From: a bacterium
GTDB lineage: Bacteria; Pseudomonadota; Alphaproteobacteria; Rhizobiales; Aestuariivirgaceae
Direction of reading: 5' to 3'
Assembly (NCBI GenBank): GCA_022842165.1
Contig: JALHQC010000012.1
Coordinates: 1-64,000 of the forward strand
DNA: 64,000 nucleotides
Of the stretch, positions 1,528-63,780 are shown in pieces. Each line of letters begins with the position of its first letter. Position 1 is the stretch's first letter. The notes below the pieces were generated by a model, which had not been told where the DNA came from, ran no database searches, and saw only the letters and a list, made by a program, of their open reading frames with translations. The position numbers and the translations under genes are program-made.

Positions 1528-1559
1528 GGGAGACGGCCCCATGAGCAAAGCCGTCTCCC
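1528..1559 (-). terminator. Hairpin between capsid and tape-measure genes
   Basis: A perfect 10-bp stem (GGGAGACGGC with GCCGTCTCCC) encloses a 12-base loop in the 98-bp gap between the capsid stop and the tape-measure start. No U-tract follows on the minus strand, so it may be an attenuator or an mRNA-processing or stability element that lowers tape-measure expression relative to capsid, rather than a full intrinsic terminator. Confidence 0.5.
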
Positions 1560-1598
1560 GGGCGCGAACGAGTGAGACACCCCACTCGCGCCTTGTCA

Positions 1599-3178: not shown

Positions 3179-3432
3179 GCGTGGCCCTCCACAGGCGCGA
3201 TGGTGAGAGGGTGCTCATAAGGGGCAAAGGCATCCGGGAACCGCGCGTGCATGTCGCCCAGGAACACCGCCAGCATATCGACGGTCTTGCCCGCACCGAT
3301 GGCCGCCACTGAAAGCACAAGCCCCATGCGCAGCAGTTCGGTCATGGCGTCATCGATCGGCCGGCCCTCGGCCTCAAGCTTCGAAAGCCCGCGGTCGAGT
3401 TCAGCCCTTAGAGTGGCGTAGGGTTTCGTCAT
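3175..3432 (-). CDS. Small phage protein of unknown function (85 aa)
   Basis: This is an acidic, helix-rich 85-residue protein (MTKPYATLRAELDRGLSKLE...) with a central hydrophobic stretch, MGLVLSVAAIGAGKTVDMLA. AAAGGA stands about 9 bases before the ATG at 3432. The start overlaps the stop of the upstream 49-residue ORF by 4 bp. I recognise no family. The GAGKT string resembles a P-loop by chance, but the protein is too short to be an ATPase. Its position before the capsid suggests a head-assembly or accessory role, which is inference only. Confidence 0.65.
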   Translation of the reverse strand: MTKPYATLRAELDRGLSKLEAEGRPIDDAMTELLRMGLVLSVAAIGAGKTVDMLAVFLGDMHARFPDAFAPYEHPLTIAPVEGHA

Positions 3433-3578
3433 GGCCCTGGTTCCTTTCGTGACAGGTCTTCCCCTTCGGGGAAGGGTGCGGGTTTTTGTTTCGTTTCAGG
3501 TCGCGTTGCACGTGGAGGGTGCGCACGGGTCCAGGAACGGCGCCGTCCGGAAAAATTACCCGGCCCTCCCATGGTCAT
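3429..3578 (-). CDS. Micro-ORF of 49 aa in the phage operon
   Basis: This short frame begins MTMGGPGNFSGRRRSW and is rich in Arg, Pro and Lys. Its ATG overlaps the stop of the 65-residue gene (ATGA, 3575-3578) and its own TGA overlaps the start of the 85-residue gene (ATGA, 3429-3432). The exact double coupling and lack of a competing frame argue that it is translated. Its composition suggests a small basic, possibly nucleic-acid-binding peptide, but no function can be assigned. Confidence 0.5.
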   Translation of the reverse strand: MTMGGPGNFSGRRRSWTRAHPPRATRPETKQKPAPFPEGEDLSRKEPGP

Positions 3579-3772
3579 AGGCTGGCCTCCAATTCATCTG
3601 CCAGGCGGCGCAAGAGGCGTGCGGCGTCCTGGGTTTCGAGGTCCGGCCCCATGGTTATCGAGAGGGCTGGCGAGGATCGCACCACGGTTGCAGGCATCGG
3701 CGTGAAGCGCCGGGCCATGGTGCCGTCGCGGGTGATGGTGATGGTCTGCCTGTTGATGAATGTTCCTGCCAT
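3575..3772 (-). CDS. Small phage protein of unknown function (65 aa)
   Basis: The ATG at 3772 has an excellent AGGAGG site about 6 bases upstream and lies 9 bp after the stop of the replication-type gene. The product (MAGTFINRQTITITRDGTMA...) looks like beta strands followed by a C-terminal helix (DAARLLRRLADELEAS). I recognise no family. It is the first of the run of coupled small genes leading to the capsid gene. Confidence 0.65.
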   Translation of the reverse strand: MAGTFINRQTITITRDGTMARRFTPMPATVVRSSPALSITMGPDLETQDAARLLRRLADELEASL

Positions 3773-3781
3773 TGGTGCCTC

Positions 3782-4705
3782 CTAAGCCTGCTTGCCCACG
3801 GCTTCCTCGATCGCAATGCGCGCGGCCTCGAGGCCCTTTGTCGCCAGTGCCTTGGCGATCTTGCTTTGATGATCGAAGGAAAGGCCCCGGATGAGGTCCA
3901 TGATCGGCTTGGATTGTCCAAATTCCTTCTCAATCGCGGGGAAGCAGCAGGCCGGATGCCGCGGTGGCGACCGCACGGGCCTTTCCAGAGCCTCTTCCTG
4001 GCCTGCCACGGGCACCGACGAAATGGGGAGCATGAGGGCGGCGACGGGCGGCGTTGCAGCCGCCGCGCGCTGCGACGACCGAACGTCGTGTTCTGAAGAG
4101 GCTGTTCTAATAGAGGCTGTTCTAAGAGGCTGTTCTGGTAGCCGTGCGGCTACTATGGGAGTAGCGAAACGGCTACCTTGGGGAGCGGTTTGGCTACTAT
4201 GGGGTAGCGAAACGGCTACTATGGAATTGTCGGATGCCGCTTCCAAGGTAGTCATACGGCTACCATTACGTTGCGTCCCCATAGTAGCCGCTTGGCTACC
4301 ATTGGCGGTCTTCTTAGCCCTGCGAGAGGCCACCGCGACCTTGCCGCGATCCTTCGCCTCATCGCTCAATCGGATGAGCCGTTCCCAGTTGAAGATGTAA
4401 TGGCTCTGGTGGCGCGGGCCGCCCGGATTGGTCCAGTGGATGAGGCGATGCCGGTCCCTGAGTTCGGCCTTGGCCTTCTTGACGGATACCTCATGCACGC
4501 CCAGCGTTTCAGCGATCCGTAATTCGCTGGGGAAGCATTCGCGGGTGTCATTGTCCATCATGCAGAGAAGGGCAGTGAGTACGCGACGGGCCAAGGGCGA
4601 GAGGTCGGGCGCGGAGTTCGCCGCTTCAATCGCGCGCCATCGCCATCCGGCAATTTCTGCAGGCGTCGGCATCGTGTCTTCGAACGGGGCTTCGTGATCT
4701 TTCAC
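3782..4705 (-). CDS. Winged-helix (HTH) phage replication-type protein
   Basis: Residues 35-105 (LARRVLTALLCMMDNDTREC... to ...HYIFNW) form a winged-helix domain of the kind found at the N-terminus of phage and plasmid replication initiators (HTH_36/DnaD-like; general family knowledge). The middle, roughly residues 130-260, is low-complexity Ala/Ser/Arg sequence encoded by DNA that carries an iteron-like array. The C-terminal 40 residues are a predicted helical domain (KPIMDLIRGLSFDHQSKIAK...). I chose the GTG at 4705 because it overlaps the HNH gene stop by 4 bp (GTGA). An internal ATG at 4672 is an alternative. A role in origin binding or helicase loading is inferred. It could instead be a regulator. 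Confidence 0.7.
   Translation of the reverse strand: MKDHEAPFEDTMPTPAEIAGWRWRAIEAANSAPDLSPLARRVLTALLCMMDNDTRECFPSELRIAETLGVHEVSVKKAKAELRDRHRLIHWTNPGGPRHQSHYIFNWERLIRLSDEAKDRGKVAVASRRAKKTANGSQAATMGTQRNGSRMTTLEAASDNSIVAVSLPHSSQTAPQGSRFATPIVAARLPEQPLRTASIRTASSEHDVRSSQRAAAATPPVAALMLPISSVPVAGQEEALERPVRSPPRHPACCFPAIEKEFGQSKPIMDLIRGLSFDHQSKIAKALATKGLEAARIAIEEAVGKQA
4097..4136. repeat. Three direct copies of AGAGGCTGTTCT
   Basis: Exact 12-bp copies lie at 4097-4108, 4112-4123 and 4125-4136, beside the palindrome array inside the replication-type gene. The spacings of 15 and 13 bp mean that they are not all in the same codon phase. They could be a second class of protein-binding site or part of an origin. 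Confidence 0.7.
4138..4299. repeat. Iteron-like array of a 16-bp hyphenated palindrome (candidate phage origin)
   Basis: The unit GTAGCN-N4-GGCTAC occurs at 4138-4153, 4161-4176, 4182-4197 (left arm degenerate), 4204-4219, 4248-4263 and 4284-4299. The GGCTAC arms are 23, 21, 22, 44 and 36 bp apart, so the first five fit a period of about 22 bp with one slot empty. The period is not a multiple of three, so the repeats fall in different codon phases and cannot be explained as a protein repeat. The arrangement recalls phage lambda, where iterons bound by O lie inside the O gene (established). Origin function here is inferred. Confidence 0.75.
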
Positions 4706-5157
4706 GGTGCCACCTGTTGCGCGTGATCCTGCAGGCCGGCCTTAGATCGGGTCGCAGTCTTAGCCCTATACCGGCGCGCCGCTTCCGCATTGCAAGCCCG
4801 GCAGGACCGCCGCCGGCCGCGCCGATAGGTGTTGCCGTCATCGAAGGGGTGTTCATGCTGGCAGCGGGCCTTCCTGGCATTGCAGGCCGGTGGAGATATG
4901 CCGCGCATGACGTTCTCGAAATGCGAGGTTGCTTCCAGATGCCAAGGGCAAGCGCAAGCCCGGTTGCGGCACGTGTGATGGATGACCCCACCTTCAGCGA
5001 TAGGCCCCACGAAGAGCAGATAGGCCACCCGGTGTGCGCCGTGACGCCTACCGTCCATGTAGACGCTGCCATAGCCGTCGGCGTCCCTGGCACCCTTCCA
5101 GGCCCAGCAACCGGTAGCGGTGATCTCCACCATGGCCTTGAAAGCAGCGGGCGTCAT
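4702..5157 (-). CDS. HNH endonuclease (phage/homing type)
   Basis: The 151-residue protein has the small HNH nuclease pattern: GCWAWKGARDADGYG near the N-terminus, then HHTCRNRACACPWHLE, which carries the paired His, Cys and Asn-like positions, and a C-terminal segment with Cys pairs (ARCQHEHPF and SCRACNAEAARRYR) that can bind zinc. I chose the ATG at 5157 (MTPAAFKAM) because GGAG sits 8 bases upstream. A TTG 13 codons earlier is possible. Its stop overlaps the GTG of the replication-type gene. Such proteins in phages act as packaging-associated nickases or as homing nucleases. The separate location from any terminase leaves both open. Confidence 0.85.
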   Translation of the reverse strand: MTPAAFKAMVEITATGCWAWKGARDADGYGSVYMDGRRHGAHRVAYLLFVGPIAEGGVIHHTCRNRACACPWHLEATSHFENVMRGISPPACNARKARCQHEHPFDDGNTYRRGRRRSCRACNAEAARRYRAKTATRSKAGLQDHAQQVAP

Positions 5158-5319
5158 GCCGTGCGCTCCAACGCTGCGAAGGCGATGACAAGGCAATCAG
5201 CCGAGAGCGAATAGCGGATGAAAGGGCAGGGCGCTGGGAATTCCAACTTCCGGCGATTATGGGCCGGTTTCGTGGCTTCAAATTCTGGAATGGGCTTTGA
5301 AGTATCTACGGTATGGCAG
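5158..5319. other. Phage-side flank of the attachment site, no gene seen
   Basis: These 162 bp lie between the HNH start and the tRNA-Asp fragment. I see no open frame with a ribosome site on either strand. The leftward promoter of the HNH operon should lie here, but no clear -35/-10 pair stands out. Confidence 0.5.
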
Positions 5320-5367
5320 GGCCTGTCACGCCGAAGGTCGCGGGTTCGAGCCCCGTCTCTCGCGCCA
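5320..5367 (+). other. Attachment site: 3' half of a tRNA-Asp gene (attR-like)
   Basis: From the anticodon loop CTGTCAC (5323-5329, anticodon GUC) onwards, the sequence gives the anticodon 3' stem, variable loop, T-arm (stem GCGGG/CCCGT around TTCGAGC), acceptor strand CTCTCGC, discriminator G and encoded CCA ending at 5367. Upstream of 5320 the anticodon stem pairing breaks (positions 27-28 mismatch), and no D-arm or 5' acceptor GCGAGAG is present. This is what remains where a prophage inserts in a tRNA gene, the intact copy being rebuilt at the other end. The phage genes lie to the left, so host DNA starts to the right. Confidence 0.85.
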
Positions 5368-5645
5368 ATCTCGTCAGCAGGTTGGCCCTTCCCGCAGCCC
5401 GGTTTCCCGAGCCATGCCCAAGACGTTCAGTTTCTTAATGCGGTAGCCTTATGGTCGGGCCTTGCCCCATATTGCGGCAGGCTTCGAACAGTTCAATCTT
5501 GCAACCGTCCGTTGATCCGAGCGTGCCTGGCAACTGATGATTGGCAGACAAGTTGACGTATAGACAACTGGATTGAAATGCGGTAATTTGATAATGCTCA
5601 AAATTGTTGGACGGCGGTTAGTGTTGTGAAGAGGTCTGATAAATC
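5368..5645. other. Intergenic, host side of the attachment site
   Basis: This stretch of 278 bp has lower GC than its surroundings (5440-5640 in particular). I see no gene or structured RNA. The promoter for the small gene at 5646 probably lies here. Confidence 0.4.
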
Positions 5646-5855
5646 ATGTCGACAGAGCGTACAATTGCGAGTGCGATAGGAATCAGGCGGGAAGTGACCC
5701 GAAACGCGGTGACGGGAGACGCGTGGCGGGTTTCGAGGTCCGCTGGTGGCCAGGTTTATCTTGGCAAGGCGCGAAATCTTATCGAAGCGCGTGAACTGGC
5801 AGAAGCCGATATTCGCAAGGGCCTGCGGAAGTCAGGCGACGTCAAGCCGCGCTAG
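5646..5855 (+). CDS. Small hypothetical protein (69 aa)
   Basis: The ORF starts at ATG 5646 with AAGAGG about 10 bases upstream. The product (MSTERTIASAIGIRREVTRN...) has a short beta-rich centre (AWRVSRSAGGQVYLGKA) and a helical C-terminal half (LIEARELAEADIRKGL). I recognise no family. It lies just outside the attachment site, so it may be host DNA or a relic of an earlier insertion. Confidence 0.45.
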   Translation: MSTERTIASAIGIRREVTRNAVTGDAWRVSRSAGGQVYLGKARNLIEARELAEADIRKGLRKSGDVKPR

Positions 5856-5956
5856 CGCACAGGGCGCGCAAGCTGAATTGCTTGCGGCGCCAAACATGCG
5901 GCAAGCTGAAATCCAGCGGGCATTCGGCGTGCAATCCAGCGCCGGATGGTCTTGCC

Positions 5957-5990
5957 AGAAAACAAAAGGGCCGCCGCATGAACGGCCCTT
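5957..5990 (-). terminator. Intrinsic terminator of the HdeA-like gene
   Basis: On the minus strand an 8-bp stem (AAGGGCCG/CGGCCCTT, 5966-5990) with a 9-base loop is followed by TTGTTTTCT. It lies 28 bp past the stop at 6019, the right place for a rho-independent terminator. Confidence 0.75.
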
Positions 5991-6018
5991 CCGCGATCCG
6001 CGTCCGGAATGGCGCCAG

Positions 6019-6309
6019 CTATTCCCCCAGAACTTCCAGCGAGGCCGACAGCAGGCCCACATCGGGGTTGGCAGCGCAATAGTTGCCGATCTGGCTTCCG
6101 ATCGATCCCATGGCGTCGAGATCCATCAGGGTCGAACCCGCCTGGCCGCCAGCATAGCCGAGAAGCCACGTAAATATGAAGGACGCGTCGCTTTCACTCA
6201 TGTTCGCAAGCTCGGAGCACTTCACCGTGCCAAGGTCGATGGTTTCGGCAGACGCGGGCGCGATGCCGATCAGTGCCGCGATTGCCGTTGCGGCCAGTGT
6301 CCGTTTCAT
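6019..6309 (-). CDS. HdeA/HdeB-like periplasmic protein
   Basis: The 96-residue product has a signal peptide (MKRTLAATAIAALIGIAPASA, cleavage near residue 21). Its mature domain contains two cysteines (C31 in VKCSELANM and C78 in IGNYCAANP) at the spacing of the HdeA/HdeB acid-stress chaperone family, which are joined by a disulfide. The pattern SESDASFIFTWLLGYAGGQAG is characteristic. I chose the ATG at 6309 for the signal peptide and the CGAGGA site. The frame is open further upstream, but that extension lacks support. Function in acid stress is by family only, since many rhizobial homologues are uncharacterised. Confidence 0.8.
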   Translation of the reverse strand: MKRTLAATAIAALIGIAPASAETIDLGTVKCSELANMSESDASFIFTWLLGYAGGQAGSTLMDLDAMGSIGSQIGNYCAANPDVGLLSASLEVLGE

Positions 6310-6526
6310 GGGGGTCCTCGTGGTTTGGGCTATATTGTCGCGCCTGCGAATTTCAGGGCGGAGTGAGATGGGCATGCTTTGACGATTCTGTCCACGCCCT
6401 ATCAGCGAGAGGACATTTGCACACCTGCATTGACAAGTGTGGCGAAAGGCTTGCGGTACATGTTGCGGTGCGCTACCAAGCGGCGGATTCACGTCTGCCG
6501 TGCTGGCGGACCTGGGGCGAAAGCAT
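6310..6526. promoter_or_regulatory. Divergent region upstream of hdeA-like gene and the nuo operon
   Basis: These 217 bp separate the leftward HdeA-like gene from rightward nuoA and must contain both promoters. TTGACA occurs at about 6431-6436, but I find no well-spaced -10 hexamer, so no individual promoter is called. Confidence 0.4.
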
Positions 6527-6892
6527 ATGCCTGAACTTCTGAGAGAATACCTGCCGATCGTCATTTTCATGGCCGTGGCATTGGGACTGTCACTGGCGCT
6601 GATCATCGCGCCGATTCTGATCGCCATCCGTAATCCCGACCCCGAGAAGCTCTCGGCCTATGAGTGCGGCTTCAACGCCTTCGACGACGCCCGCATGAAG
6701 TTCGACGTGAGATTCTATCTCGTGTCGATTCTCTTCATCATCTTCGATCTCGAAGTGGCCTTCCTGTTCCCCTGGGCGGTGACGCTGGGGGACAACGGCG
6801 TTTTCGGCTTCTGGTCGATGATGATTTTCCTCGGCGTGCTGACCATCGGGTTCATATATGAGTGGCGCAAAGGAGCTCTCGAATGGGACTGA
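6527..6892 (+). CDS. nuoA: NADH-quinone oxidoreductase subunit A
   Basis: This is a 121-residue membrane subunit of complex I, with three hydrophobic segments (about residues 8-30, 63-85 and 92-113). The conserved loop [20 protein letters not shown] contains the family Cys at the entrance of the quinone cavity, and [20 protein letters not shown] is the signature second helix. I chose the ATG at 6527 ([10 protein letters not shown]), which matches the usual family length. A longer frame from 6437 lacks support. First gene of the nuo operon. Its end overlaps nuoB by 10 bp. Confidence 0.96.
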
Positions 6893-7407
6893 TTGAAAAG
6901 GCTTCTCCCGAGCAGCGCGAACACTTCACCAACATCAGCGCTGAACTGGCCGACAAGGGATTTCTCGTTACCGCATCCGACGACTTGATCAACTGGGCCC
7001 GTACCGGCTCGCTCATGTGGATGACCTTCGGGCTCGCCTGCTGTGCGGTCGAGATGATGCAGGCCTCGATGCCGCGCTGGGACTTGGAACGCTTCGGCTT
7101 CGCGCCCCGCGCCTCGCCTCGCCAGTCTGACGTGATGATCGTTGCCGGAACGCTGACCAACAAGATGGCTCCCGCACTCCGCAAGGTCTACGACCAGATG
7201 CCGGAGCCGCGCTATGTCATCTCCATGGGAAGCTGTGCAAACGGCGGCGGCTATTATCATTATTCCTACTCGGTGGTGCGCGGCTGCGACCGCATCGTGC
7301 CCGTCGATATCTATGTCCCGGGCTGCCCGCCCACGGCCGAGGCGCTGATCTACGGCATTCTGCAGTTGCAGAAGAAGATCCGCCGCACCGGAACGATCGA
7401 GCGCTGA
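6883..7407 (+). CDS. nuoB: NADH-quinone oxidoreductase subunit B
   Basis: The 174-residue peripheral-arm subunit carries iron-sulfur cluster N2, the last electron carrier before quinone. All four ligands are visible: the tandem C53-C54 in [11 protein letters not shown]118 in GSCANGG and C148 in PGCPPTAE. I chose the ATG at 6883 ([11 protein letters not shown]), within the end of nuoA, because it has AGGAG upstream and matches family length. Confidence 0.97.
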
Positions 7408-7409
7408 GA

Positions 7410-8012
7410 ATGGCTGAGACCCTTCAGGAACTGGGCGGCTATATTGCAGGCAAGCTTGGCGCATCGGTGACGGGCGTAACGGTGGCGTTCGGCGATCTCA
7501 CCATCCTGGCGGAAGCCAGCGACATCGTCAGCGTGCTGACCTTCCTGCGTGACGATGCGGAATGTGCCTTCGTGTGCTTCATCGACATCTGTGGCGTCGA
7601 CTACCCCGAGCGTGAGAAGCGCTTTGACGTGGTCTATCACCTGCTGGCGCCCTACAAGAACCGCCGCATCCGCGTGAAGGTTCAGGCTGACGAGGACACG
7701 CCCGTTCCGAGCGTGATCGAGGTGTTCCCGTCCGCCAACTGGTATGAGCGCGAGGCCTTCGATCTCTACGGCATGCTGTTCTCGGGCCACCCCGACCTCC
7801 GCCGCATCCTGACCGACTATGGCTTTGCGGGCCATCCACTGCGGAAGGATTTCCCGCTCACCGGCTATGTCGAGGTCCGCTACGACGATGAGGTCAAGCG
7901 CGTGGTCTATGAGCCCGTGAAACTTACCCAGGAGTTCCGTGCATTCGATTATCTCTCGCCGTGGGAAGGCACTGATTATGTCATTCCCGGTGACGAAAAG
8001 GCGAAGTCATGA
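7410..8012 (+). CDS. nuoC: NADH-quinone oxidoreductase subunit C
   Basis: The 200-residue 30-kDa subunit of the peripheral arm of complex I is recognised by [18 protein letters not shown], the [20 protein letters not shown] signature and the [20 protein letters not shown] segment. It starts 2 bp after nuoB. It is separate from nuoD, as in alphaproteobacteria and mitochondria, unlike the fused NuoCD of E. coli. Confidence 0.97.
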
Positions 8013-9196
8013 CTGAAGCAGTCAGAAACTTTTCGATCAACTTCGGGCCGCAGCATCCTGCGGCCCACGGCGTGTTGCGCCTTGTCCTCGAGCTTGACGG
8101 CGAGGTCTGCACCCGCGTCGATCCGCATATCGGGCTTCTGCATCGCGGCACCGAAAAGCTGATCGAGTACAAGACCTATCTGCAGGCCGTTCCCTATTTC
8201 GACCGGCTCGACTACGTGGCGCCGATGAACCAGGAACATGCCTGGTCTCTGGCTGTCGAACGCATGATCGGCATCACCGTTCCGAAGCGCGGGCAGCTGA
8301 TCCGCGTGATGTATTCCGAAATCAGCCGTATTCTCTCCCATCTCCTCAACGTCACCACGCAGGCGATGGACGTGGGCGCCTTGACCCCGCCGCTCTGGGG
8401 CTTCGAGGAACGCGAGAAGCTGATGGTGTTCTACGAGCGCGCATCGGGTTCGCGCATGCATGCGGCCTATTTCCGGCCAGGCGGCGTGCACCAGGATATC
8501 ACGCAGCAACTCATCGACGATATCGGCGAGTTCTGCGACCACCACAACAAGGTGCTCGACGATATCGAAGGCCTGCTCACCGACAACCGCATCTTCAAGC
8601 AGCGCAACGTCGATATCGGTGTCGTATCGCTGAAAGAGTGTTTCGAGTGGGGCTTTTCAGGGGTCATGGTGCGGGGCTCCGGTGCGGCATGGGACCTGCG
8701 CAAGTCGCAGCCCTATGAATGCTACAACGAGATGGAATTCGACATTCCGATCGGCAAGAACGGCGACTGCTACGACCGCTACCTGATCCGCATGCAGGAA
8801 ATGCGCGAGTCCGTGAAGATCATGAAGCAGTGCGTTGAACTGCTTTCAGGCAAGGAGCGTGTCGGGCCGGTTTCTTCAGCCGATGGCAAGGTGGTGCCCC
8901 CGAAGCGCGGCGAGATGAAGAAGTCGATGGAAGCGCTGATCCATCACTTCAAGCTCTACACCGAAGGCTACCGCGTGCCGGAAGGCGAAATCTATGCCGC
9001 CGTCGAAGCGCCGAAGGGTGAGTTCGGCGTCTATCTGGTATCGGATGGCACCAACAAGCCTTACCGCTGCAAGATCAGGGCTCCGGGCTTCGCGCATTTG
9101 CAGGCCATGGACCACATCTGCCGCGGCCACATGCTGGCCGATGTCTCCGCCGTGCTCGGTTCTCTCGATATCGTTTTTGGTGAGGTGGACCGGTGA
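8009..9196 (+). CDS. nuoD: NADH-quinone oxidoreductase subunit D
   Basis: The 395-residue 49-kDa subunit forms the quinone-binding site with Nuo[21 protein letters not shown] near the N-terminus holds the conserved quinone-site His, [18 protein letters not shown] and [20 protein letters not shown] follow, and [20 protein letters not shown] and the C-terminal [13 protein letters not shown] are standard. The ATG overlaps the nuoC stop (ATGA), indicating translational coupling. Confidence 0.97.
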
Positions 9197-10569
9197 GCGT
9201 CCGTCGTCTTTATGCAATTCAGCCTGAGAGCTTCGCGTTCAACGCGGAGAACATGGCTTGGGCCAAGCAGACCATCGCGAAATATCCTGAAGGGAAACAG
9301 GCTTCCGCCGTGATCCCGCTGCTGTGGCGCGCGCAGGAGCAGAACGAGAACTGGGTTTCGAAGCCGGTGATCGAATACGTGGCTGACATGCTGGGCATGT
9401 CCTATATCCGCGTGCTAGAGGTCGCGACCTTCTACACGATGTTCCAGTTGCAGCCGGTGGGAAAGATCGCCCACATCCAGGTGTGCGGAACGACGCCCTG
9501 CATGCTGCGCGGCGCCGAGGACCTGAAAAAGGTCTGCCAGAGCAAGATCCATCACGATCCGCATCACCTGTCGGTTGACGGCAATTTCTCGTGGGAAGAG
9601 GTCGAGTGCCTCGGCGCCTGCGTGAATGCGCCTATGGTGCAGATATTCAAGGACACCTACGAAGACCTGACGCCCGCTTCGCTCGACAAGTTGATCGAGG
9701 ACCTGGCCGCCGGGCGTAAAGTGAAGGTCGGCCCGCAGATCGACAGGCACAACGCAGCACCCGAAGGAGGCCCGACGACGCTGACGGACCCCGCCCTCTA
9801 CAAGGGCAGCCGCAGCTTCACCCGCGTCGAGCCGCCGCCGCCAGCCGAAGCCCCGCCCGCTGCGGCAGCGCCGGCTCCAGCAGCGCCGGCGCCTGTTGCT
9901 CCTCCGGCCGCGACTCCCGCACCCGCCGCCGCGGCGCCGAAGAAGGAACCCCTGGTGGTCGTGTCTTCCGATACGCCCGCACCGGCACCCGCCGTGCCGA
10001 AGCCCGAGGACATTCGCCCGGTCTCCGCCGCCGCAAAAGCGACGGAACGCCAGCAGGCCGCCGCCGAGAGGAAAGAAGCCGCTTCGCCCGCAGCCGGCTC
10101 GCCCATGGAAGGCAAGGCCCAGCGCGAGACGAATGTGACGCGCGCTTCGGCGAATGAAGTGAAATCCGCAGCGCCGGTGAAGTCGATTGCCGATGTGAAG
10201 CCGGTCGAAATCACCAACCCCAAGGCCCCGGCGCCCGTGAAACTCGCTGAGGCGAAGATACAGCCCGCGCGCCAGCCATCGCCTGATGGCAAGCCGGAGC
10301 TATTGAAGAAGCCGAAGGGCGGCAAAGGTGACGACCTCAAGCTCATCTGGGGCGTTGGCCCCAAGCTGGAGCAGATGCTGAACACCATGGGCATCTGGCA
10401 TTTCGACCAGATCGCCGCATGGACAGCTAAGGAACTGGCCTGGGTGGACGAACGCCTCGAAGGCTTCAAGGGCCGCGCCAGGCGCGATGGCTGGATTAAG
10501 CAGGCGAAGAAACTCAGCACCGGATGGCGGCCCGACAGCGCCACCGGCGACAAGCCGAAGAGCAAGTGA
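9193..10569 (+). CDS. nuoE: NADH-quinone oxidoreductase subunit E with C-terminal extension
   Basis: Residues 1-200 are the 24-kDa thioredoxin-fold subunit with the 2Fe-2S ligands C98, C103, C139 and C143 (VCGTTPCML and [10 protein letters not shown]). Family members usually end near residue 200. Here an Ala/Pro-rich linker (about 210-370) joins a folded C-terminal domain at about 375-445 ([20 protein letters not shown]...), which has a helix-hairpin-helix-like GVGPKLEQ motif. Similar extensions are known in rhizobial NuoE proteins. The role is unknown. The GTG start at 9193 overlaps the nuoD stop (GTGA). Confidence 0.95.
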
Positions 10570-10578
10570 GGGTAGGCG

Positions 10579-11886
10579 ATGCTCGCTGACAAGGACCGCA
10601 TCTTCACCAACATCTACGGCTTCCACGACTGGGGCCTTGATGGCGCGAAGAAGCGCGGCTGCTGGAATGGAACCAAGGGTTTCATCGACAAGGGCCGCGA
10701 CTGGATGGTCAACGAGATGAAGGCCTCAGGGCTCCGTGGCCGCGGCGGTGCGGGCTTCCCCACGGGCCTCAAGTGGAGCTTCATGCCGAAGGTGATCGGC
10801 GAGCGCCCGCATTACCTCGTGGTGAACGCCGATGAATCCGAGCCCGGCACCTGCAAGGACCGCGAAATCCTCCGCCACGAACCGCACCTGCTCGTCGAAG
10901 GCTGCCTGCTGGCTGGCGCGGCGATGGGCTGCCACACGGCTTACATTTATGTGCGCGGTGAATTCATCCGCGAGCGCGAGCATCTGCAGGCCGCCGTCGA
11001 CCAGGCCTATGAGGCACGCCTCCTCGGCAAGAACAATGTGCATGGCTGGGATTTCGACGTCGTCGTGCATCACGGTGCCGGCGCCTATATCTGCGGCGAG
11101 GAAACCGCGATGCTCGAAAGCCTCGAGGGCAAGAAGGGCCAGCCGCGCATGAAGCCGCCGTTCCCCGCGAATGTGGGCCTTTATGGCGCGCCGACGACGG
11201 TGAACAATGTGGAATCGATCGCAGTGGCGGGCACCATCATGCGTCGTGGCGCGACGTGGTTCTCCTCCATCGGCCGCCCGAACAACTTAGGGACCAAGCT
11301 GTTCTGCATTTCGGGCCATGTGAACAAGCCCTGCGTGGTGGAAGAAGAGCTCGGCATTCCCTTCCGCGAATTGATCGAGCGTCACGCCGGCGGCGTGCGC
11401 GGCGGTTTTGACAATCTCCTGGCGGTCATCCCCGGTGGTTCTTCGGTCCGCATGGTGCCGGCCGAACAGATCATCGACACGCCGATGGATTTCGACTCGC
11501 TCTCGAAGCTGCGCTCAGGCCTTGGCACGGCGGCGGTGATCGTCATGGACAAGTCCACCGATCTCATTCGCGCCATCGCCCGCCTTGCTTACTTCTACAA
11601 GCACGAATCCTGCGGCCAGTGCACGCCCTGCCGGGAAGGCACGGGCTGGATGTGGCGCGTGATGACGCGCATGGCCGAGGGCCGCGCCGAGAAGCGCGAG
11701 ATCGACATGCTGCTCGACGTGACGAAGCAGATCGAGGGCCACACGATCTGCGCATTGGGCGATGCCGCGGCCTGGCCGATCCAGGGCCTCATCGCGCATT
11801 TCCGCCATGTCATCGAAGAGCGTATCGACCAATATGCAGCCAACCCTGACCATGATGGCGCGGTGCGCCGAGTGGCCGCTGAATAA
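10579..11886 (+). CDS. nuoF: NADH-quinone oxidoreductase subunit F
   Basis: The 435-residue 51-kDa subunit oxidises NADH through FMN and passes electrons to cluster N3. The NADH/FMN glycine motif [16 protein letters not shown] lies near residue 55, [13 protein letters not shown] and [16 protein letters not shown] follow, and [14 protein letters not shown] near residue 345 provides three of the four 4Fe-4S cysteines, the fourth being in [13 protein letters not shown]. It lies 9 bp after nuoE. Confidence 0.97.
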
Positions 11887-11900
11887 TCACGAGCAAGCGA

Positions 11901-13982
11901 ATGCCTAAACTGAAGATCGACGGCACCGAGATCGAGGTCGAGAACGGACTGACCCTGCTGCAGGCCTGCGAGCAGGCGGGCGCCGAAGTGCCGCGCTTCT
12001 GCTATCACGAGCGTCTTTCGATTGCCGGCAACTGCCGCATGTGCCTTGTTGAAGTAAAGGGCGGACCGCCGAAGCCGCAGGCCTCCTGCGCGATTTCGGT
12101 GAACGACCTCCGTCCCGGACCCAATGGCGAGCCGCCGGAAGTCTTTACCAAGACGCCGATGGTGAAGAAGGCGCGCGAGGGCGTGCTCGAATTCCTGCTG
12201 ATCAACCATCCGCTCGATTGCCCGATCTGCGACCAGGGCGGCGAGTGCGACCTGCAGGACCAGACGATGGCCTATGGCCTCGACAAGAACCGCTTCTTCG
12301 AGAACAAGCGGGCGGTCGAGGACAAGTACCTCGGGCCGCTGGTCAACACCCACATGAACCGCTGCATCCAGTGCACGCGCTGTGTGCGCTTCACCACCGA
12401 AGTGGCGGGTATCGAGGAGATGGGCGCCACCGGCCGTGGCGAGGACATGGAGATCACCACCTATCTCAACAAGGCGATCTCCTCCGAGCTTCAGGGCAAC
12501 ATCATCGACCTTTGCCCGGTTGGCGCACTTGTAAGCGCGCCTTACGAGTTCAAGGCGCGTCCTTGGGAATTGCGCAAGACCGAGACTATCGACGCGATGG
12601 ATGCGGTGGGCTCTAACATCCGCGTCGATGCGCGCGGCCGCGAAGTGATGCGCATCCTGCCGCGCACCCATGAAGACGTGAACGAAGAATGGATTTCCGA
12701 CAAGACGCGCTTCGTGTGGGATGGGCTTCGCGCCCAGCGTCTTGACCGCCCCTATGTGCGTGAGTTCGGCAAACTCCGCTCCGCAAGCTGGCCCGAGGCC
12801 TTCCTGCGCGTGGCGCAGAAGATGAAGGCCGCCAGGCCTGAGCGCGTCGGCATTATTCTCGGCGATCTTGTGGGTGCCGAGGAAGCTTTCTCGGTTCGTC
12901 AGCTGGCGGATCAACTGGGTATCAGGAACATCGATTGCCGTCAGGATGGCTCGCCGCTTGGCGAATTGGGCGGGCGCGCTGGCTATCTCTTCAACACCGG
13001 CATCGCCGGGATCGAGGAGGCTGACGCCATCCTGCTGGTCGGCACCAACCCGCGCCTCGAGGCTCCGGTGCTGAACGCCCGCATCCGCAAGCGCCTGCTG
13101 AAGGGCGGCTGCACCATCGGCGTCATCGGCGAGAAGGCCGACCTGACCTATCCCTACGCCTACCTTGGCGCCGGAACCGACACGCTGGCGAAACTTGCCG
13201 AACATGCGCCGGCTCAGGCGCAAAAGCCGATGTTCATCATCGGGCAGGGCGCTCTGGCCCGTGCCGATGGCCCCGCCGTGCTCGCCACCGCCTATAAGGC
13301 CGCCGCGGCAATCGGCGTCGTCAAGGATGGCTGGAACGGTTTCAACGTGCTGCACACCGCTGCTGGCCGCGTGGGCGCGCTCGATGTCTGCGCGCTGCCC
13401 GGGAAGGATGGCGGCAAGACCACGCGTGAAATGATCGCGGCGGCGAAAGCGGGCGAACTCGACGTGCTGTTCCTGATCGGCGCCGACGAGATCGATACCG
13501 CCAATCTTGGCTCCACTTTCGTCGTCTATGTCGGTTCGCATGGCGATCAGGGCGCACACCGCGCCGATGTGATCCTTGCAGGCGCCGCCTACACCGAAAA
13601 GCAGGTGACTTACGTCAACACCGAAGGCCGCCCGCAGATGACGCAGCGCGCCTCCTTCCCGCCGGGTGAAGCGCGTGAGGACTGGGCGATCTTCCGTGCC
13701 CTGTCGGACCAGCTGGGCGCCACGCTGCCGTGGAACTCGCTCGATGAGCTGCGCTCCGCCATGTACAAGGTGGCGCCGCAGCTGATGCGCCTTGACCAGC
13801 TCACGCCCTCCAATGCGACCGAACTTGCCGACCTTGCAAAATCCGAGGGCCAGATGTCGGGCGAGCCGTTCCGTTCGCCGATTGTCGATTTCTACATGAC
13901 CAACCCGATCGCGCGCGCGTCCAGGACCATGGCCGAATGCTCGGCGGTGAAGAATGGCGCTAAGCTCGAGGCGGCGGAGTGA
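11901..13982 (+). CDS. nuoG: NADH-quinone oxidoreductase subunit G
   Basis: The 693-residue 75-kDa subunit carries the N-terminal 2Fe-2S cluster ([19 protein letters not shown]), the His/Cys N5 cluster region ([14 protein letters not shown]) and the N4 ligands ([10 protein letters not shown]), followed by a molybdopterin-oxidoreductase-like domain that has lost its cofactor in this family. The length matches alphaproteobacterial and mitochondrial NuoG (about 690). E. coli NuoG is longer. The ATG at 11901 is 14 bp from nuoF. Confidence 0.97.
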
Positions 13983-13986
13983 ATCC

Positions 13987-15048
13987 ATGACCGAGATCAT
14001 CACCGCACTTCTGTTCTGGGTTGTCGTGAGCCTGGGCTTCATGTCGGCCCTGCTGATCATTGTCGCCTATCTGCTCTGGGCAGACCGCAAGATCTGGGCC
14101 GCTGTGCAAATGCGCCGCGGGCCCAATGTGGTAGGACCCTGGGGCCTGTTCCAGTCCTTCGCCGATCTCCTGAAGTTCGCCTTCAAGGAAGTGGTGATCC
14201 CCGATGGCGCCAACAAGGGCATCTTCGTCATAGCACCGCTGGTCACGGCCACATTGGCGCTCGCGGCCTGGGCCGTAGTGCCGGTGTCGGATGGCAGCTT
14301 CTTCGGGCTTGTCGAGGGCCGCTGGGTCGTCTCCGACATCAATGTCGGCATCCTCTATCTCTTCGCGCTGTCTTCGCTTGGCGTCTATGGCGTCATCATG
14401 GGCGGCTGGGCCTCGAACTCGAAATATCCCTTCCTCTCGGCATTGCGTTCAGCCGCGCAGATGGTGAGCTACGAAGTCTCGATCGGCTTCGTCATCATCA
14501 CCGTGCTGCTCTGCGCGGGCACGCTGAACCTGACGGAGATCGTACTGTCGCAGAAGACCGGGCTCGGCACCATGCTCGGCCTGCCGAACTCCTTCCTCGA
14601 CTGGTACTTCATCCCGCTGTTCCCGATGTTCATCATCTTCTTCATTTCGGCACTGGCGGAAACCAACCGTCCGCCCTTCGACCTGGTCGAGGCGGAGTCG
14701 GAACTCGTGGCCGGCTTCATGGTGGAGTATTCCTCCACGCCCTATCTGCTGTTCATGCTCGGCGAGTATGTGGCGATCGTGCTGATGTGCGCGATGACAA
14801 CGATCCTGTTCCTCGGGGGCTGGCTGCCGATCATCGACGTTCCGGTGTTGAACTGGGTACCGGGCATCCTGTGGTTCTTGGCGAAGCTGTTCTTCGTCTT
14901 CTTCATGTTCGCCATGGTGAAGGCCATCGTGCCGCGCTACCGCTATGACCAGTTGATGCGCCTCGGCTGGAAGGTGTTCCTGCCGATCTCGCTGTTCTGG
15001 GTGGCGCTGACCGCTGGTGTCCTCGTCGCATTCGGATGGGCGCCATGA
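13987..15048 (+). CDS. nuoH: NADH-quinone oxidoreductase subunit H
   Basis: The 353-residue subunit has eight predicted membrane helices and forms much of the quinone tunnel. [20 protein letters not shown] and the acidic loop [20 protein letters not shown] are the family signatures. I chose the ATG at 13987 ([11 protein letters not shown]), 4 bp after nuoG. An upstream in-frame extension is not supported. Confidence 0.96.
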
Positions 15049-59277: not shown

Positions 59278-60174
59278 ATGCTGATCGGCATAGACTGGGG
59301 CGGAACCAAGATCGAGGGCGTGGCGATGGATACCGATGGCCGCGAGTTGCTGCGCCTGCGCGAGGCAACACCCCGCCATGACTATGGCGGCTGCCTGAAG
59401 GCGATTGCCGCGATGATCGTGGCGCTTGAGGACAAGACGGGGAAGAAGGGAACGGTCGGCATCGGCATTCCGGGATCGCTGGAGCCAGAGAGCCGCCTCG
59501 GCAAGGGCGCGAGTTCCACTTGGATTCTTGGCAAGCCCGTCGAGGCTGATCTCAAGGCCGCGATCGGCCGCGATATCCGCGTCGAGAACGATGCCGATTG
59601 TTTCGCGGCCTCCGAAGCGGTGGATGGGGCAGGGGCGGGATATAATGTGGTGTTCGCGGTGATACTGGGGTCCGGCGTGGGGGCCGGCATCGCCGTCAAC
59701 GGGCGCGCGCATCATGGGCCGAACAATTCGGGCGGCGAGTGGGGGCATAACCCGTTGCCGTTTCCCGACACCACCGAAATCCCCGGCAAGCCCTGCTATT
59801 GCGGAAGGGTGGCATGTATCGAGACATGGTGCTCGGGGCGCGCCTTCGAAGCTCAGTATGCGGAGCATAAGGGTGTTGAGCTGAAAGCGGCTGAGATCAT
59901 GGTGCTGAAGCGGCAGGGCGATCACCTCGCGAGCCTGCTGTGGCGGCGCTACGTCGACCGCGTGGCACGGGGGCTGGCAACGGTCGTCAACGCGCTCGAT
60001 CCCGATGTGCTGGTGATGGGGGGCGGCATGTCGAACGTCGACGAGCTTTACGAGGATCTGCCGCCCGCATTGGCGCAGCGCACGTTCTCGACCGTGTTCC
60101 AGACACCGATTGTGCGCAACAGGCATGGCGATGCGAGCGGCGTGAGGGGAGCGGCATGGCTGTGGAAGGAATGA
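59278..60174 (+). CDS. ROK-family sugar kinase
   Basis: The 298-residue kinase has the phosphate motif GIDWGGTKIEG, a second ATP-site motif GSGVGAGIAVNG, catalytic-region ENDADCFAASEA, the ROK signature with zinc ligands (GEWGHNPL...CYCGRVACIETWCSG) and VMGGGMSN. This most resembles ROK fructokinase/glucokinase types. The ATG at 59278 has GGGGAGAG upstream. First gene of a four-gene operon divergent from the desaturase-like gene. Confidence 0.9.
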   Translation: MLIGIDWGGTKIEGVAMDTDGRELLRLREATPRHDYGGCLKAIAAMIVALEDKTGKKGTVGIGIPGSLEPESRLGKGASSTWILGKPVEADLKAAIGRDIRVENDADCFAASEAVDGAGAGYNVVFAVILGSGVGAGIAVNGRAHHGPNNSGGEWGHNPLPFPDTTEIPGKPCYCGRVACIETWCSGRAFEAQYAEHKGVELKAAEIMVLKRQGDHLASLLWRRYVDRVARGLATVVNALDPDVLVMGGGMSNVDELYEDLPPALAQRTFSTVFQTPIVRNRHGDASGVRGAAWLWKE

Positions 60175-60176
60175 GC

Positions 60177-60956
60177 ATGGAAACCAATCAGCGCTTCAAC
60201 TTCGGCCTCGACCTGATCAAGGAGGCAGGGGAGCTGGCGCTGGGCTACTTCAACGCGCGCAGCACGCTCACCATCCAGAACAAGGGCGTGCAGGATCTGG
60301 CCAGCGAGGCCGACCTCAACACCGAGCTGCTGATCCGCGACAAGCTGGCGAAGGCCTTTCCGGAAGATGCCTTTCTGGGCGAGGAGACGGAGCCCACATC
60401 CTATGACGGCGATCAGGGGATCTGGGTGGTCGACCCCATCGACGGGACGCAGCCGTTCATTTGCGGGCTTTCGAGCTGGTGCGTGTCGATCGCCTTCGTG
60501 AAGGGCGGCGTCCTGCAGTTCGGCATGGTCTACGCGCCGGCGCGCGGCGAATTGTTTTCAGGCGGCAAGGCCTATCCGGCGATGCTCAACGGAAAGCCCA
60601 TCGAGGGGCACAAGGGCAAGTCGGTGAAGGATGGCTTGACCGCCACCGGCTATTCGCCAAAGAGCGGGCCGGACGAATTCCTGCCGGGCTTCGAGCGGTT
60701 CCTGAAGGCGGGCGGCATGTTCTACCGCGATGGCTCCGGCGCGCTGGGTCTTTGCTATGTGGCGGCGGGGAGGCTGATCGGATTCTTCGAGCCGATGATC
60801 AGGTCCTGGGATTGCCTGGGTGCCGTGGCGGTGCTCGAGGCGGCGGGGCTGAAGGTGAGCGACTTCCTTGCGAACGACGGGCTGCGCAAGGGCAATCCGA
60901 TCATTGCGGCGAACGAACACGTGTACCGGGAACTTGAAAAGCTGATCGCGGGTTGA
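60177..60956 (+). CDS. Inositol monophosphatase family protein
   Basis: The 259-residue phosphatase has the metal-site motifs GEETEP, WVVDPIDGTQPFICG and SWDCLGAVAVLEAAG. The family removes phosphate from inositol, histidinol or fructose-1,6-bisphosphate-type substrates. I chose the ATG at 60177, with AAGGA six bases upstream. The ATG at 60171, which overlaps the kinase stop (ATGA), is equally possible. Confidence 0.9.
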   Translation: METNQRFNFGLDLIKEAGELALGYFNARSTLTIQNKGVQDLASEADLNTELLIRDKLAKAFPEDAFLGEETEPTSYDGDQGIWVVDPIDGTQPFICGLSSWCVSIAFVKGGVLQFGMVYAPARGELFSGGKAYPAMLNGKPIEGHKGKSVKDGLTATGYSPKSGPDEFLPGFERFLKAGGMFYRDGSGALGLCYVAAGRLIGFFEPMIRSWDCLGAVAVLEAAGLKVSDFLANDGLRKGNPIIAANEHVYRELEKLIAG

Positions 60957-61963
60957 TGCGCATGGCAAAGATCGACATCATTTATCTCAACGCCGCCGAC
61001 ATCGAGAAAATCGCGCTAAGCGATGACGAGATCATGGCCGCGGTGGAAGAAGCACTCATCGCTGCAGGACGCGGGCAGACGGTGATCGAGCCGCGCACCC
61101 ATCTGATCCCTGACCCGCAGGGAAACGGCCACTTCAACATCTTGCGCGGCGTGGTGGGGCCCCTGAACCTCGCAGGCGTGAAGGTTGTCGGAGACTTCCA
61201 CGACAATTACAAGCACGGGCTGCCCTCCGAGATGGCGATCCTCAATCTCTTCGATCCGCGCACTGGAATGCCGCGCGCCATCATCGATGCGACCGCGATC
61301 ACCGACATGCGGACGGGCGCACTGACGGCCATCGGTGCCAGGCATCTGGCGCCGCAGAAGCCTCGCGTGCTGGGGCACATCGGCGCGCGTGGCACGTCCT
61401 ACTGGAACATCAGGCTGCTCGACCGGCTCTATGACTTCGAGGAGATCCGCGTTCATTCGCGAAGGCCGGAAAGCCGCGAGGCCTTCGCGCGCCGGCTCGA
61501 GCAGGATTTGAAGAAGAAGATCACCATCACCGAGGATTGGCGAAGCTGCGTTGAAGGTGCAGACATCATCGTCGAAGCCTCGCGGCTGGAGAAGCCACAG
61601 CCGATGCTGAAGACTGCCTGGGTGAAGGAGGGTGCCCTCATCATCCCCTATGGCACGATGAGTGCCCTTGAACTCGACTTGACCGACCGCATGGCCAAGA
61701 TCGTGGTCGATGATCGCGGGCAGATGTTGGCCGGGCCCTTCGGTGCGCTGCGCCCGCACATCAATGCGGGCAAGGTCTCGCCCGATACGGTGCATGCCGA
61801 GATTGGCGAGATCTGTGCGGGCCTGAAGCCCGGCCGCGAGAGTGCCGCGGAAACGATCCTGTTCTGGCACCGGGGACTTTCGACAAGCGATATCGCGCTG
61901 GGTGCGGCCATCATCGCCAAGGCACAGGCAATGGGGCTTGGCCAGACCCTGAACTACATGTGA
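60956..61963 (+). CDS. Ornithine cyclodeaminase/mu-crystallin family protein, divergent
   Basis: The 335-residue protein matches the family overall: an N-terminal catalytic-site region with GVKVVGDF (K76) and ATAITDMRTGALTAIGARHL, then a Rossmann domain. The nucleotide motif normally GxGxQA is here GHIGARGTSYW (residues 140-150), without the usual Gln-Ala, so cofactor binding may differ. The family includes imine reductases and cyclodeaminases. The ATG shares bases with the preceding stop (TGATG); 60962 is an alternative start. Confidence 0.85.
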   Translation: MRMAKIDIIYLNAADIEKIALSDDEIMAAVEEALIAAGRGQTVIEPRTHLIPDPQGNGHFNILRGVVGPLNLAGVKVVGDFHDNYKHGLPSEMAILNLFDPRTGMPRAIIDATAITDMRTGALTAIGARHLAPQKPRVLGHIGARGTSYWNIRLLDRLYDFEEIRVHSRRPESREAFARRLEQDLKKKITITEDWRSCVEGADIIVEASRLEKPQPMLKTAWVKEGALIIPYGTMSALELDLTDRMAKIVVDDRGQMLAGPFGALRPHINAGKVSPDTVHAEIGEICAGLKPGRESAAETILFWHRGLSTSDIALGAAIIAKAQAMGLGQTLNYM

Positions 61964-61967: not shown

Positions 61968-63413
61968 ATGACGCTGGTTATCCAATCGCTCAACGACTTC
62001 ACCATCGAGAACTATAACCGCGTGGCGTGGGGCGGCGAGGGCGTGATGCTTTCGCCCGCCGCCGTGAAGCGCATGGCTGAGGAGCGCCGCCGCTTCGAGC
62101 GCCTGATCGAGGACCCGGGCGTCACCATCTATGGCGTGACCAGCGGCTATGGCCAGAATGCGAAGAAGCGGCTGACGCCCGAGGAGCGCAAGCTTCACGC
62201 CAAGGTGCCGCCGGTGCAATCGGCTGCGTCGTCGGGCAACCCGGTGCCGCAGCGCGTGGTGCGCGGCATCGTCTTCGCGCGGCTTGCCAATTTCATCGAA
62301 GGCCATTCGGCGATCACGCCCGCGATCGCCGAGGCCGTGGCGCAGATGCTGGATGGCCGCGAGCTTGCGCCTGTGCCTGCGCGCGGACAGGGCGGTGCGG
62401 GTGAAATCCTGTCGCTGTCGCATCTCTTCGCGAACTTTGCCGAGAACCCCGCCATTGCCGAAAAGGATTTGCTATCGCTCATCAACGGCTCGCCCGCGGC
62501 CAGCGCACTGACCGCCGATGCGGCACTTGCCGCGCGTGCGAGGCTCGATCTCGCCGCGGAAGTCTTCGCGCTGTCGGCGGAGGCCTTCAACATTCCATTG
62601 TCGCATTTTGCAGTAGCGCTCGAAGGTTTGTGGAACAACCGGCACGATGCCTGGGCGCTGCGCCGCTTGCGCGAACTGATCGGCAATGGTCATGGCGGCG
62701 CGCGGCGGCCCTATCAGGCGCCGGTGAGCTATCGCATCCTGCCGCGCATGCTGGGGCAGGCGCACCGCGCTGCTGTGATGGCTGAGGAGATTGCAGCGGA
62801 GTCACTCGGCGCCGTGACCGACAATCCGGTAATGCTGCCTGCGGATGAGAGCCATCCCGATGGCGAAGTCATCAGCACCGGCGGCTATCACAACCCGCAT
62901 GCCGTGCTGGCGATGGATGCGGTTGCTGCGGCGGCAGCCAATCTGATCGTGATCGCCGGGCGCCATGCCGACAAGCTTCTGAATGGTGCGGTCTCGCTGC
63001 TGCCCGATCAGCTGGGGCTTGGAAACTCCACCGACTATCTCGGCTGCCTGCCCTTCGCGAGTGCTGGCTATGAGGAAGAGGCACGCCTGATGGCGCAGAC
63101 GACTTTGCTGCCGGGATCGGAAACCGGAGGCTATGCGCAGAACGATGTGGCATCCCCCGTTTTTTTGAGCTGGACGAAGCAGGAGAGGGTAGGTGCGTTG
63201 CTGGAGGCCGCACTGGCAAACCTAGCGATCATTTCGCTCCGCGCGCTCGATCTCACGTCACGGCCCGTGCCGCCGGGGCTGAACGGGCTTGAAACTGCGA
63301 TTCGACAGTATCTGCCGCCGCTTCATTCCGGGCTGGCGCCGGGGCCTGTCGCAGCGCGGATCGAGGCGGCGTTTCGAAGCCGCGTCTATGGCACGTCAAG
63401 AGATGCGATATAG
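61968..63413 (+). CDS. Histidine/aromatic ammonia-lyase-like protein lacking the MIO triad
   Basis: The 481-residue protein follows the HAL/PAL fold: YGVTSGYG with Y55, a helical core, LINGSPAAS with N173 and AVTDNPVML. The Ala-Ser-Gly that cyclises to the MIO cofactor is absent: at the expected place it reads ARGQGGAGEILSLSHL (G143-A144-G145), one residue shorter than the usual RGSVGASGDLAPLSHL with no Ser. The QDxYSxR motif has become QAPVSYR (V253). It is intact and in frame, so it is not a simple pseudogene. The start is 4 bp after the OCD-like gene; its end overlaps the convergent cytochrome gene by 28 bp. Confidence 0.9.
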   Translation: MTLVIQSLNDFTIENYNRVAWGGEGVMLSPAAVKRMAEERRRFERLIEDPGVTIYGVTSGYGQNAKKRLTPEERKLHAKVPPVQSAASSGNPVPQRVVRGIVFARLANFIEGHSAITPAIAEAVAQMLDGRELAPVPARGQGGAGEILSLSHLFANFAENPAIAEKDLLSLINGSPAASALTADAALAARARLDLAAEVFALSAEAFNIPLSHFAVALEGLWNNRHDAWALRRLRELIGNGHGGARRPYQAPVSYRILPRMLGQAHRAAVMAEEIAAESLGAVTDNPVMLPADESHPDGEVISTGGYHNPHAVLAMDAVAAAAANLIVIAGRHADKLLNGAVSLLPDQLGLGNSTDYLGCLPFASAGYEEEARLMAQTTLLPGSETGGYAQNDVASPVFLSWTKQERVGALLEAALANLAIISLRALDLTSRPVPPGLNGLETAIRQYLPPLHSGLAPGPVAARIEAAFRSRVYGTSRDAI

Positions 63414-63706
63414 GCAACGAGGTCCTGCACTTCCTCGGGCATCAGCGTCCATTGCACGTCCGGCATGCCGGAATGGGGCGATGGCGCGATGATGCGCGAC
63501 CAGATGTCCTCGGAAGTGCGGTAGATCGCGATTGCTTGGAAGCTTGGCGGCTTCAGTTTGAAGCCTGCGCCTTTCTCGATGTTATGGCAGCGGACGCAGT
63601 GCTCCTCCGCGAGCCGGCGGCCCGCGGCCGCATCGCCTGCCAGCGTTGGCGCGGCGGCGAGTCCGCACATGACAAAGGTCGCGAGAAAGAGCAGCGGATT
63701 TTTCAT
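63386..63706 (-). CDS. Class I c-type cytochrome, periplasmic
   Basis: The 106-residue protein has a signal peptide (LFLATFVMCGLAAAPTLAG, cut near residue 23), a heme site C37-V-R-C40-H41 and a likely axial Met in SGMPDVQW. A short, monoheme electron carrier. I chose the ATG at 63706. Its 3' end overlaps the ammonia-lyase-like gene on the opposite strand. Confidence 0.88.
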   Translation of the reverse strand: MKNPLLFLATFVMCGLAAAPTLAGDAAAGRRLAEEHCVRCHNIEKGAGFKLKPPSFQAIAIYRTSEDIWSRIIAPSPHSGMPDVQWTLMPEEVQDLVAYIASLDVP

Positions 63707-63780
63707 CTGTGTGCCTCCCGTTAGCAGCCGGGATATCACAGCACTGTTCAGGGGCGTCTGCCTTGACTGGAATCAACCCC

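Follow-up and report, generated by a model that had tools for sequence, protein, structure and literature searches.

A gene in a 64,000 nt stretch of DNA from a member of the Aestuariivirgaceae (Rhizobiales; positions 1 to 64,000 of contig JALHQC010000012.1, assembly GCA_022842165.1; hereafter the window) encodes a lyase of the Pfam family PF00221 in which, judging from its sequence, the 4-methylideneimidazole-5-one (MIO) cofactor cannot form. The protein is an intact member of a conserved bacterial subfamily of MIO-less lyases, here called the GE subfamily or GE clade. MIO is a textbook example of a self-made cofactor, and searches of one library of open-licence PMC papers found, apart from ergothionase, no description of a PF00221 clade lacking it.

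The MIO position and the active site

The open reading frame runs from an ATG to a TAG codon with no internal stops and specifies 481 aa (Table 1). The product is a member of the fold family, scoring 188.2 bits against PF00221 (Lyase_aromatic, cut-off 27.3), and lies below the threshold of the NCBIfam equivalog for HutH, a histidine ammonia-lyase (HAL), with 133 bits against TIGR01225 (cut-off 539). Tyrosine aminomutase and HAL were the top matches in a search of solved sequences, and an AlphaFold2 model with a predicted template modelling score (pTM) of 0.86 matches HAL and ergothionase in fold, the one shared by HAL and phenylalanine ammonia-lyase (PAL). The fold markers YGVTSGYG (residues 55–62), LINGS (171–175) and TDNP (284–287) are all present.

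The alignment used to compare active sites included 65 members of the subfamily (39 from the main clade, 24 from a single genome, G481, and a divergent pair termed DGE) and 18 other lyases. The alignment excludes one short piece, L047 (358 aa, truncated where its contig stops), and contains some partial rows, including L050, L092 and L109. At the MIO position the window lyase reads VPARGQGGAGEILSLSH, where the HutH encoded in the same genome and four further lyases bearing Ala-Ser-Gly (ASG), which served as the reference, read GSVGASGDLAPLAH. Aligned with these, the window lyase has GGA-GEI: the Ser is deleted, leaving the loop one residue shorter, the Asp is replaced by Glu, and A144-G145-E146 occupy the site of MIO formation in HAL. 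The initial annotation of this DNA, which had noted intact fold markers with a shorter GAG in place of Ala-Ser-Gly, was therefore correct, and alignment with HutH and the four other ASG lyases revealed no Ala-Ser-Gly that could take the MIO position instead.

That annotation had also pointed to a changed QDxYSxR motif. The window lyase has QAPVSYR, in which the Gln and Arg of the HAL motif are retained and Tyr280 has become Val253; hence, it contains neither the Ala-Ser-Gly (or xSG) nor the QDxYSxR with Tyr280 that characterize the MIO-dependent ammonia-lyases and aminomutases (HAL, PAL and the tyrosine enzymes TAL and TAM). When the alignment was extended to 88 rows, the Tyr280 column held Tyr in all five rows with ASG and an aliphatic residue in all 83 rows without it (60 Val, 18 Leu and 5 Ile). 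The equivalents of HAL Y53, N195, Q277 and R283 (Tyr55, Asn173, Gln250 and Arg256 in the window lyase) are each found in 97–98 % of the 65 members, and HAL Tyr53 is the catalytic base in that enzyme. Among the same 65, the position of HAL His83 is not conserved (His is kept in one DGE row) and that of E414 is mostly Asn or Asp.

The further statement that MIO is essential to known members of the family does not hold. Ergothionase, which cleaves ergothioneine to yield thiourocanic acid plus trimethylamine, is reported to lack MIO (PMC13405746), and the loop of the ergothionase used here as reference, the ergothioneine trimethylamine-lyase of Treponema denticola (PDB 6s7j), is shortened equally.

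Table 1. Positions of the features discussed. Coordinates refer to the window unless a locus is named
Feature	Position	Strand	Remarks
MIO-less PF00221 lyase, GE subfamily, 481 aa	61968..63413	+	Profile match, alignment, tree, AlphaFold2 fold match
Tyr55 (HAL Tyr53)	62130..62132	+	Kept in 98 % of 65 rows
GQGGAGEIL loop, residues 140–148, replacing GSVGASGDL of own HutH	62385..62411	+	Alignments
Asn173 (HAL Asn195)	62484..62486	+	Kept in 97 % of 65 rows
QAPVSYR (Gln250, Val253, Arg256), HAL QDPYSLR (Q277, Y280, R283)	62715..62735	+	Alignments
Y307-H308-N309, replacing HAL F329-H-G/A	62886..62894	+	Tyr in 55/65 rows
Ornithine cyclodeaminase (OCD)/mu-crystallin family gene	60953..61963	+	4 bases upstream of lyase
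Inositol-monophosphatase-family gene	60156..60956	+	Overlaps OCD gene; start picked by eye
ROK-family sugar kinase gene	59278..60174	+	Overlaps next gene, same strand; start picked by eye
OCD-family gene and overlapping TSD-type lyase gene, two congeners	L159:11363-13905; L160:2231-4419		Overlap 4 and 1 bp
Five tandem GE paralogs	L076 (G481:C6:266000-285900), genes 7082-14460		
Six tandem GE paralogs	L077 (G481:C7:1-17000), genes 565-10985		Two other small genes inside array
Divergent (DGE) lyase pair, loops MGMDGE and LGMDGE	L173 (G481:C7:88000-107900), 7442-10506		OCD-family gene ~3 kb away

A conserved clade

In a tree built without the loop columns the 65 members form one clade with a Shimodaira-Hasegawa-like approximate likelihood ratio (SH-aLRT) support of 99, though this was a quick tree for which the program warned of long branches. 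The conserved MIO-less clade that the initial annotation had proposed to look for therefore exists. Searches at the level of the order detected members 49–64 % identical to the window lyase in 14 of 397 genomes, its own included, the next matches being only about 30 % identical. With a profile of 15 sequences, members were found at E up to 1e-60 in 12 of 37 genomes of the genus and in 5 of 398 of the phylum, and at E up to 1e-40 in 17 of 385 genomes of the class. The five from the phylum had all come up before in the class or order searches. Plasmids of Rhizobium tropici CIAT 899 and R. jaguaris also encode GE members. The genome of the window has a second GE copy, 58 % identical to the first and with the same loop, as well as its own ASG-bearing HutH, which shares 22 % identity with the window lyase and lies on one contig with the only urocanase, an ordinary one.

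All 15 sequences compared (the window lyase and 14 others that are 49–64 % identical) have exactly the loop GQGGAGEIL, so that chance is of no concern, and Gly-Glu after the gap (G145 and E146) is invariant in all 65 aligned rows. A read error or local frameshift that removed a serine codon, the artefact considered in the initial annotation, is refuted because the loop is shared by both copies in the genome and by 13 other genomes of the 397, and Gly-Glu by 65 of 65 rows. The wider suggestion of a sequencing error or decaying pseudogene has a negligible probability; a TGA codon does fall within the match of one relative (G209), but the frame in the window is open and the ratios of non-synonymous to synonymous substitution rates (dN/dS) in seven close pairs are 0.07, 0.07, 0.14, 0.07, 0.08, 0.07 and 0.18. 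That such an unusual and highly conserved loop (mostly GxGGAGE in the main clade) sits at the MIO site might instead indicate that some other built-in or added electrophile substitutes for MIO. This we regard as very improbable: aligned members of the clade have no conserved Ser, Cys or Thr in the loop, some G481 proteins have Pro, Ser, Asp or Glu where the window lyase has Ala144, and nothing supports an autocatalytic cyclisation.

G481, a 2.7 Mb genome, has 24 GE members (E <1e-100) in addition to the two relatives of the DGE type. Of two other PF00221 genes in this genome, one was shown to bear ASG. It also carries seven urocanase genes, compared with a maximum of two in any other of the 385 genomes of the class. 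Loop residues in its two arrays (L076 and L077) vary, examples being GQAGPGE, GAVSAGE, GNIGSGE and GTTWAGE.

Gene context

The OCD-family gene and the window lyase gene are probably co-transcribed, and the OCD enzyme is a probable pathway partner of the lyase in the window. Among the loci read, the genes for the inositol-monophosphatase-family and ROK-family proteins adjoin the lyase in this genome alone. On the other side, a small c-type cytochrome gene (63386-63739, minus strand) is convergent with the lyase gene and overlaps its 3' end by 28 bp. Orthologs of the OCD gene are present in 3 of 37 congeneric genomes, its own included (E up to 1e-60), and in both genomes besides that of the window (G228 and G1104) the ortholog overlaps the gene for a lyase with a different ASG-less loop, TSD (Table 1). 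One related OCD gene is the neighbour of a urocanase gene, and a second is located close to the DGE pair in G481. OCD as partner of the whole clade was rejected, as among 42 clade loci it adjoins the lyase only in the window; at L086 it is about 1 kb away and divergent.

Neighbours were read at these 42 loci, which hold 51 members, using eleven query proteins for urocanase, S-Me-THD, OCD, DTA, Ert, SBP5, UbiD and UbiX. In addition to the OCD gene of the window, the following were found. At L076 in G481, five tandem lyase paralogs and an Opp-type transporter adjoin a gene passing the S-methyl-thiourocanate hydratase profile (NF058531, 890.8 versus 880) and a gene scoring 409 for S-methyl-thiohydantoin desulfurase, below the cut-off of 450. 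At L079, genes for a HutC-like regulator, a canonical urocanase and the lyase follow one another with overlaps of 4 bp, and a gene for a pyridoxal phosphate (PLP) enzyme comes next. L114, in R. jaguaris, includes ErtD (760 versus 600), ErtE (575 versus 520), UbiD and UbiX, and L084 includes ErtE (564, cut-off 520), UbiD, UbiX and a solute-binding protein. L113 has UbiD and UbiX, at L093 UbiD ends 3 bases upstream of the lyase, and L086 has the OCD gene and an aldolase-like PLP gene. A close relative of the window lyase (L111) is downstream of ring-cleavage genes. Conservation of gene neighbours is mostly absent beyond close relatives, and most relatives are solitary genes.

Queries with ErtD of R. 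jaguaris and the S-Me-THD-like protein of G481 returned 44 and 15 plasmid records, respectively, and eight stretches were read. The ErtD homologs in these are 42–78 % identical and were not typed by NCBIfam. A PF00221 gene is present in four of the eight, and none was found in the other four. The lyases in the Ert-type clusters of Lichenihabitans and Burkholderia ambifaria bear ASG, that in an Agrobacterium cluster (L181), beside a glycine-betaine ABC transporter, has a GYLTH loop, and that of Rhizobium sp. SL42 has GCADI, its best PDB match being 6s7j, with the loop SSIGEGDITTLSH. Including R. jaguaris, the Ert-type clusters read thus contain five lyases, three of them without ASG and with three loop types. 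We read these clusters, whose NCBIfam names are annotations, as suggesting that the loss of MIO is linked to a trimethylammonium leaving group. Clusters around ErtD homologs with UbiD were seen at L179:8856-13500 (also UbiX) and L180:8898-15765, and UbiD there may represent a decarboxylation branch in an ergothioneine-like breakdown pathway.

Proposed function

The initial annotation expected either different chemistry or a non-catalytic role. Standard MIO chemistry is indeed not expected, because MIO cannot form and the MIO-less clade is conserved. A non-catalytic role is not favoured because Tyr55, Asn173, Gln250 and Arg256 are kept, dN/dS is 0.07–0.18 and some members are in catabolic operons. 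A pseudoenzyme that has kept the fold as a scaffold, ligand-binding protein or regulatory subunit, possibly hetero-oligomeric, would fit the loss of MIO together with several active-site residues, the many solitary copies and the tandem arrays of five and six paralogs in G481. It is nonetheless quite unlikely, given near-invariance of those four residues and invariance of Glu146 across 65 rows from 13 family codes, and given ergothionase as a working MIO-free precedent.

Our preferred interpretation, which has about an even chance of being correct, is by analogy with ergothionase. The window lyase would be an active enzyme of the HAL/PAL superfamily that works without MIO, catalysing an acid-base beta-elimination of an amine that is by itself a good leaving group to give an arylacrylic acid. 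It keeps the Tyr base, the Arg that binds the carboxylate, and the Asn and Gln. The leaving group would most plausibly be the quaternary N-trimethyl group of an aryl- or imidazolyl-alanine betaine, released as trimethylamine. Tyr55 would remove the beta proton, and Glu146, the aliphatic residue 253 and Tyr307 may reshape the pocket to accommodate a leaving group that is bulky and cationic and to which MIO could not have bonded covalently. The product would be urocanate or a related arylacrylate, processed further by urocanase- or UbiD-type enzymes in some hosts. A connected imine or amino acid may be the substrate of the OCD-family reductase encoded upstream. A hercynine-type betaine as the substrate in the window would be a guess only.

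Two other kinds of enzyme, a MIO-free lyase or hydro-lyase that expels NH3, water, a thiol or an N-linked substituent and an ammonia-lyase that truly works without MIO, would also keep the fold and the Tyr base, as in fumarase/aspartase relatives. We consider this unlikely. Without MIO, ammonia is difficult to eliminate from an alpha-amino acid whose beta proton is not acidic, and the absence of HutH from one genome (G758) may be an assembly gap, the second urocanase gene of that genome lying at a contig end.

Several observations weigh against betaine elimination. The active-site loops of the AlphaFold2 model have a predicted local distance difference test (pLDDT) score below 50. The window lyase is only 19 % identical to ergothionase 6s7j, and His83, Phe329 and Glu414 are kept in ergothionase but changed in the window lyase, so that the active sites differ. 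Any of the genes sought was found in the fetched DNA at only 8 of the 42 clade loci; at the other 34 none was detected at the thresholds used, and many of these adjoin der, ccm-dsbE, NAD-glutamate dehydrogenase or other housekeeping genes. The association with urocanase, which was present in 15 of 17 clade-bearing genomes of the class versus 81 of the 368 others (Fisher p 3.2e-8), is uncorrected for kinship or genome size. Two of the five lyases in Ert-type clusters retain ASG. An ErtD match was found in 3 of 25 clade-bearing genomes (25 of the 37 found), one above the cut-off, and genome searches revealed neither an ErtD match nor S-Me-THD in the genome of the window, and a single urocanase.

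S-Me-THD occurs in 25 of 289 class genomes, of which three (G481, G558 and G655) bear the clade, and there is no clear link. Ergothioneine as a general substrate of the clade is thus unsupported, and it is unlikely to be the substrate of the window lyase because that genome has no ErtD or S-Me-THD genes and the positions of H83, F329 and E414 differ.

PF00221 genes are routinely annotated as histidine ammonia-lyase, including genes on rhizobial plasmids encoding proteins with a GYL[ST]H loop, and a conserved MIO-free family together with further ASG-less loop types would make many such annotations wrong. More broadly, and with somewhat less than even confidence, we suggest that the GE clade may be a new family of MIO-free C–N lyases that dismantle many different betaines of aromatic or imidazole amino acids and that has grown to 24 paralogs in a single 2.7 Mb alphaproteobacterium. 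The MIO-less half of PF00221, of which the clade would be one branch, would then be large and mostly unrecognised, comprising ergothionase and the GYL[ST]H, TSD/AGD, ASD and GE types and including members that carry the annotation histidine ammonia-lyase. A testable mechanistic question is also raised, namely whether loss of MIO always accompanies a pre-activated amine leaving group. Should this be the case, the enzymes would offer new routes to trimethylamine and arylacrylates from betaines made by plants, fungi and microbes.

Comparison with known systems

HutH and the tyrosine ammonia-lyases (TAL) and aminomutases share with the window lyase the Pfam family, the fold and the residues Y53, N195, Q277 and R283. 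The window lyase differs from them in having no ASG, Val in place of Tyr280, Tyr in place of F329 and Asn/Asp in place of E414, and in the loss of His83.

Other ASG-less loop types exist in the superfamily, beyond what could have been known when the window was first annotated. Proteins of the GYL[ST]H type, from rhizobia and Agrobacterium and annotated as hutH, also lack ASG and have an aliphatic residue at Tyr280. They differ from the window lyase in that their loop is three residues shorter and they form their own clade (100). Their closest PDB matches are HALs (7tqr was the top match for the two tested). Genes of this type were seen at L021, L022, L024-L028, L031, L034, L036 and L181:560-2053, and rhizobial plasmids commonly carry similar hutH-annotated genes, many of which overlap a gene for an ABC transporter. 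The TSD, AGD, ASD and CAD types (L023, L033, L029, L032, L035 and L183:5705-7279) all have a loop one residue shorter. The TSD/AGD and ASD types resemble the window lyase in this and in the absence of ASG, but have Asp rather than Glu after the loop and fall into separate clades. In a quick tree of 88 rows, from which PAL and TAL were left out, every row without ASG lies on one side of a single branch (97). Ergothionase, represented by a single sequence, groups with the TSD/AGD, ASD and CAD types (94) and outside the GE clade (99), on long branches.

Ergothionase is the closest known counterpart. Like the window lyase, 6s7j has the HAL fold, the Tyr base, the Gln and Arg of QDPxSxR and a loop shortened by one residue at the same place (GE-GD versus GA-GE), and in both Tyr280 is replaced by an aliphatic residue (Leu in 6s7j, Val in the window lyase). 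The GGAGEIL loop of the window lyase is absent from 6s7j. By this analogy the window lyase probably works like ergothionase without being one. The GE clade is distinct from the known cases, but a MIO-free PF00221 enzyme as such is already known in ergothionase.
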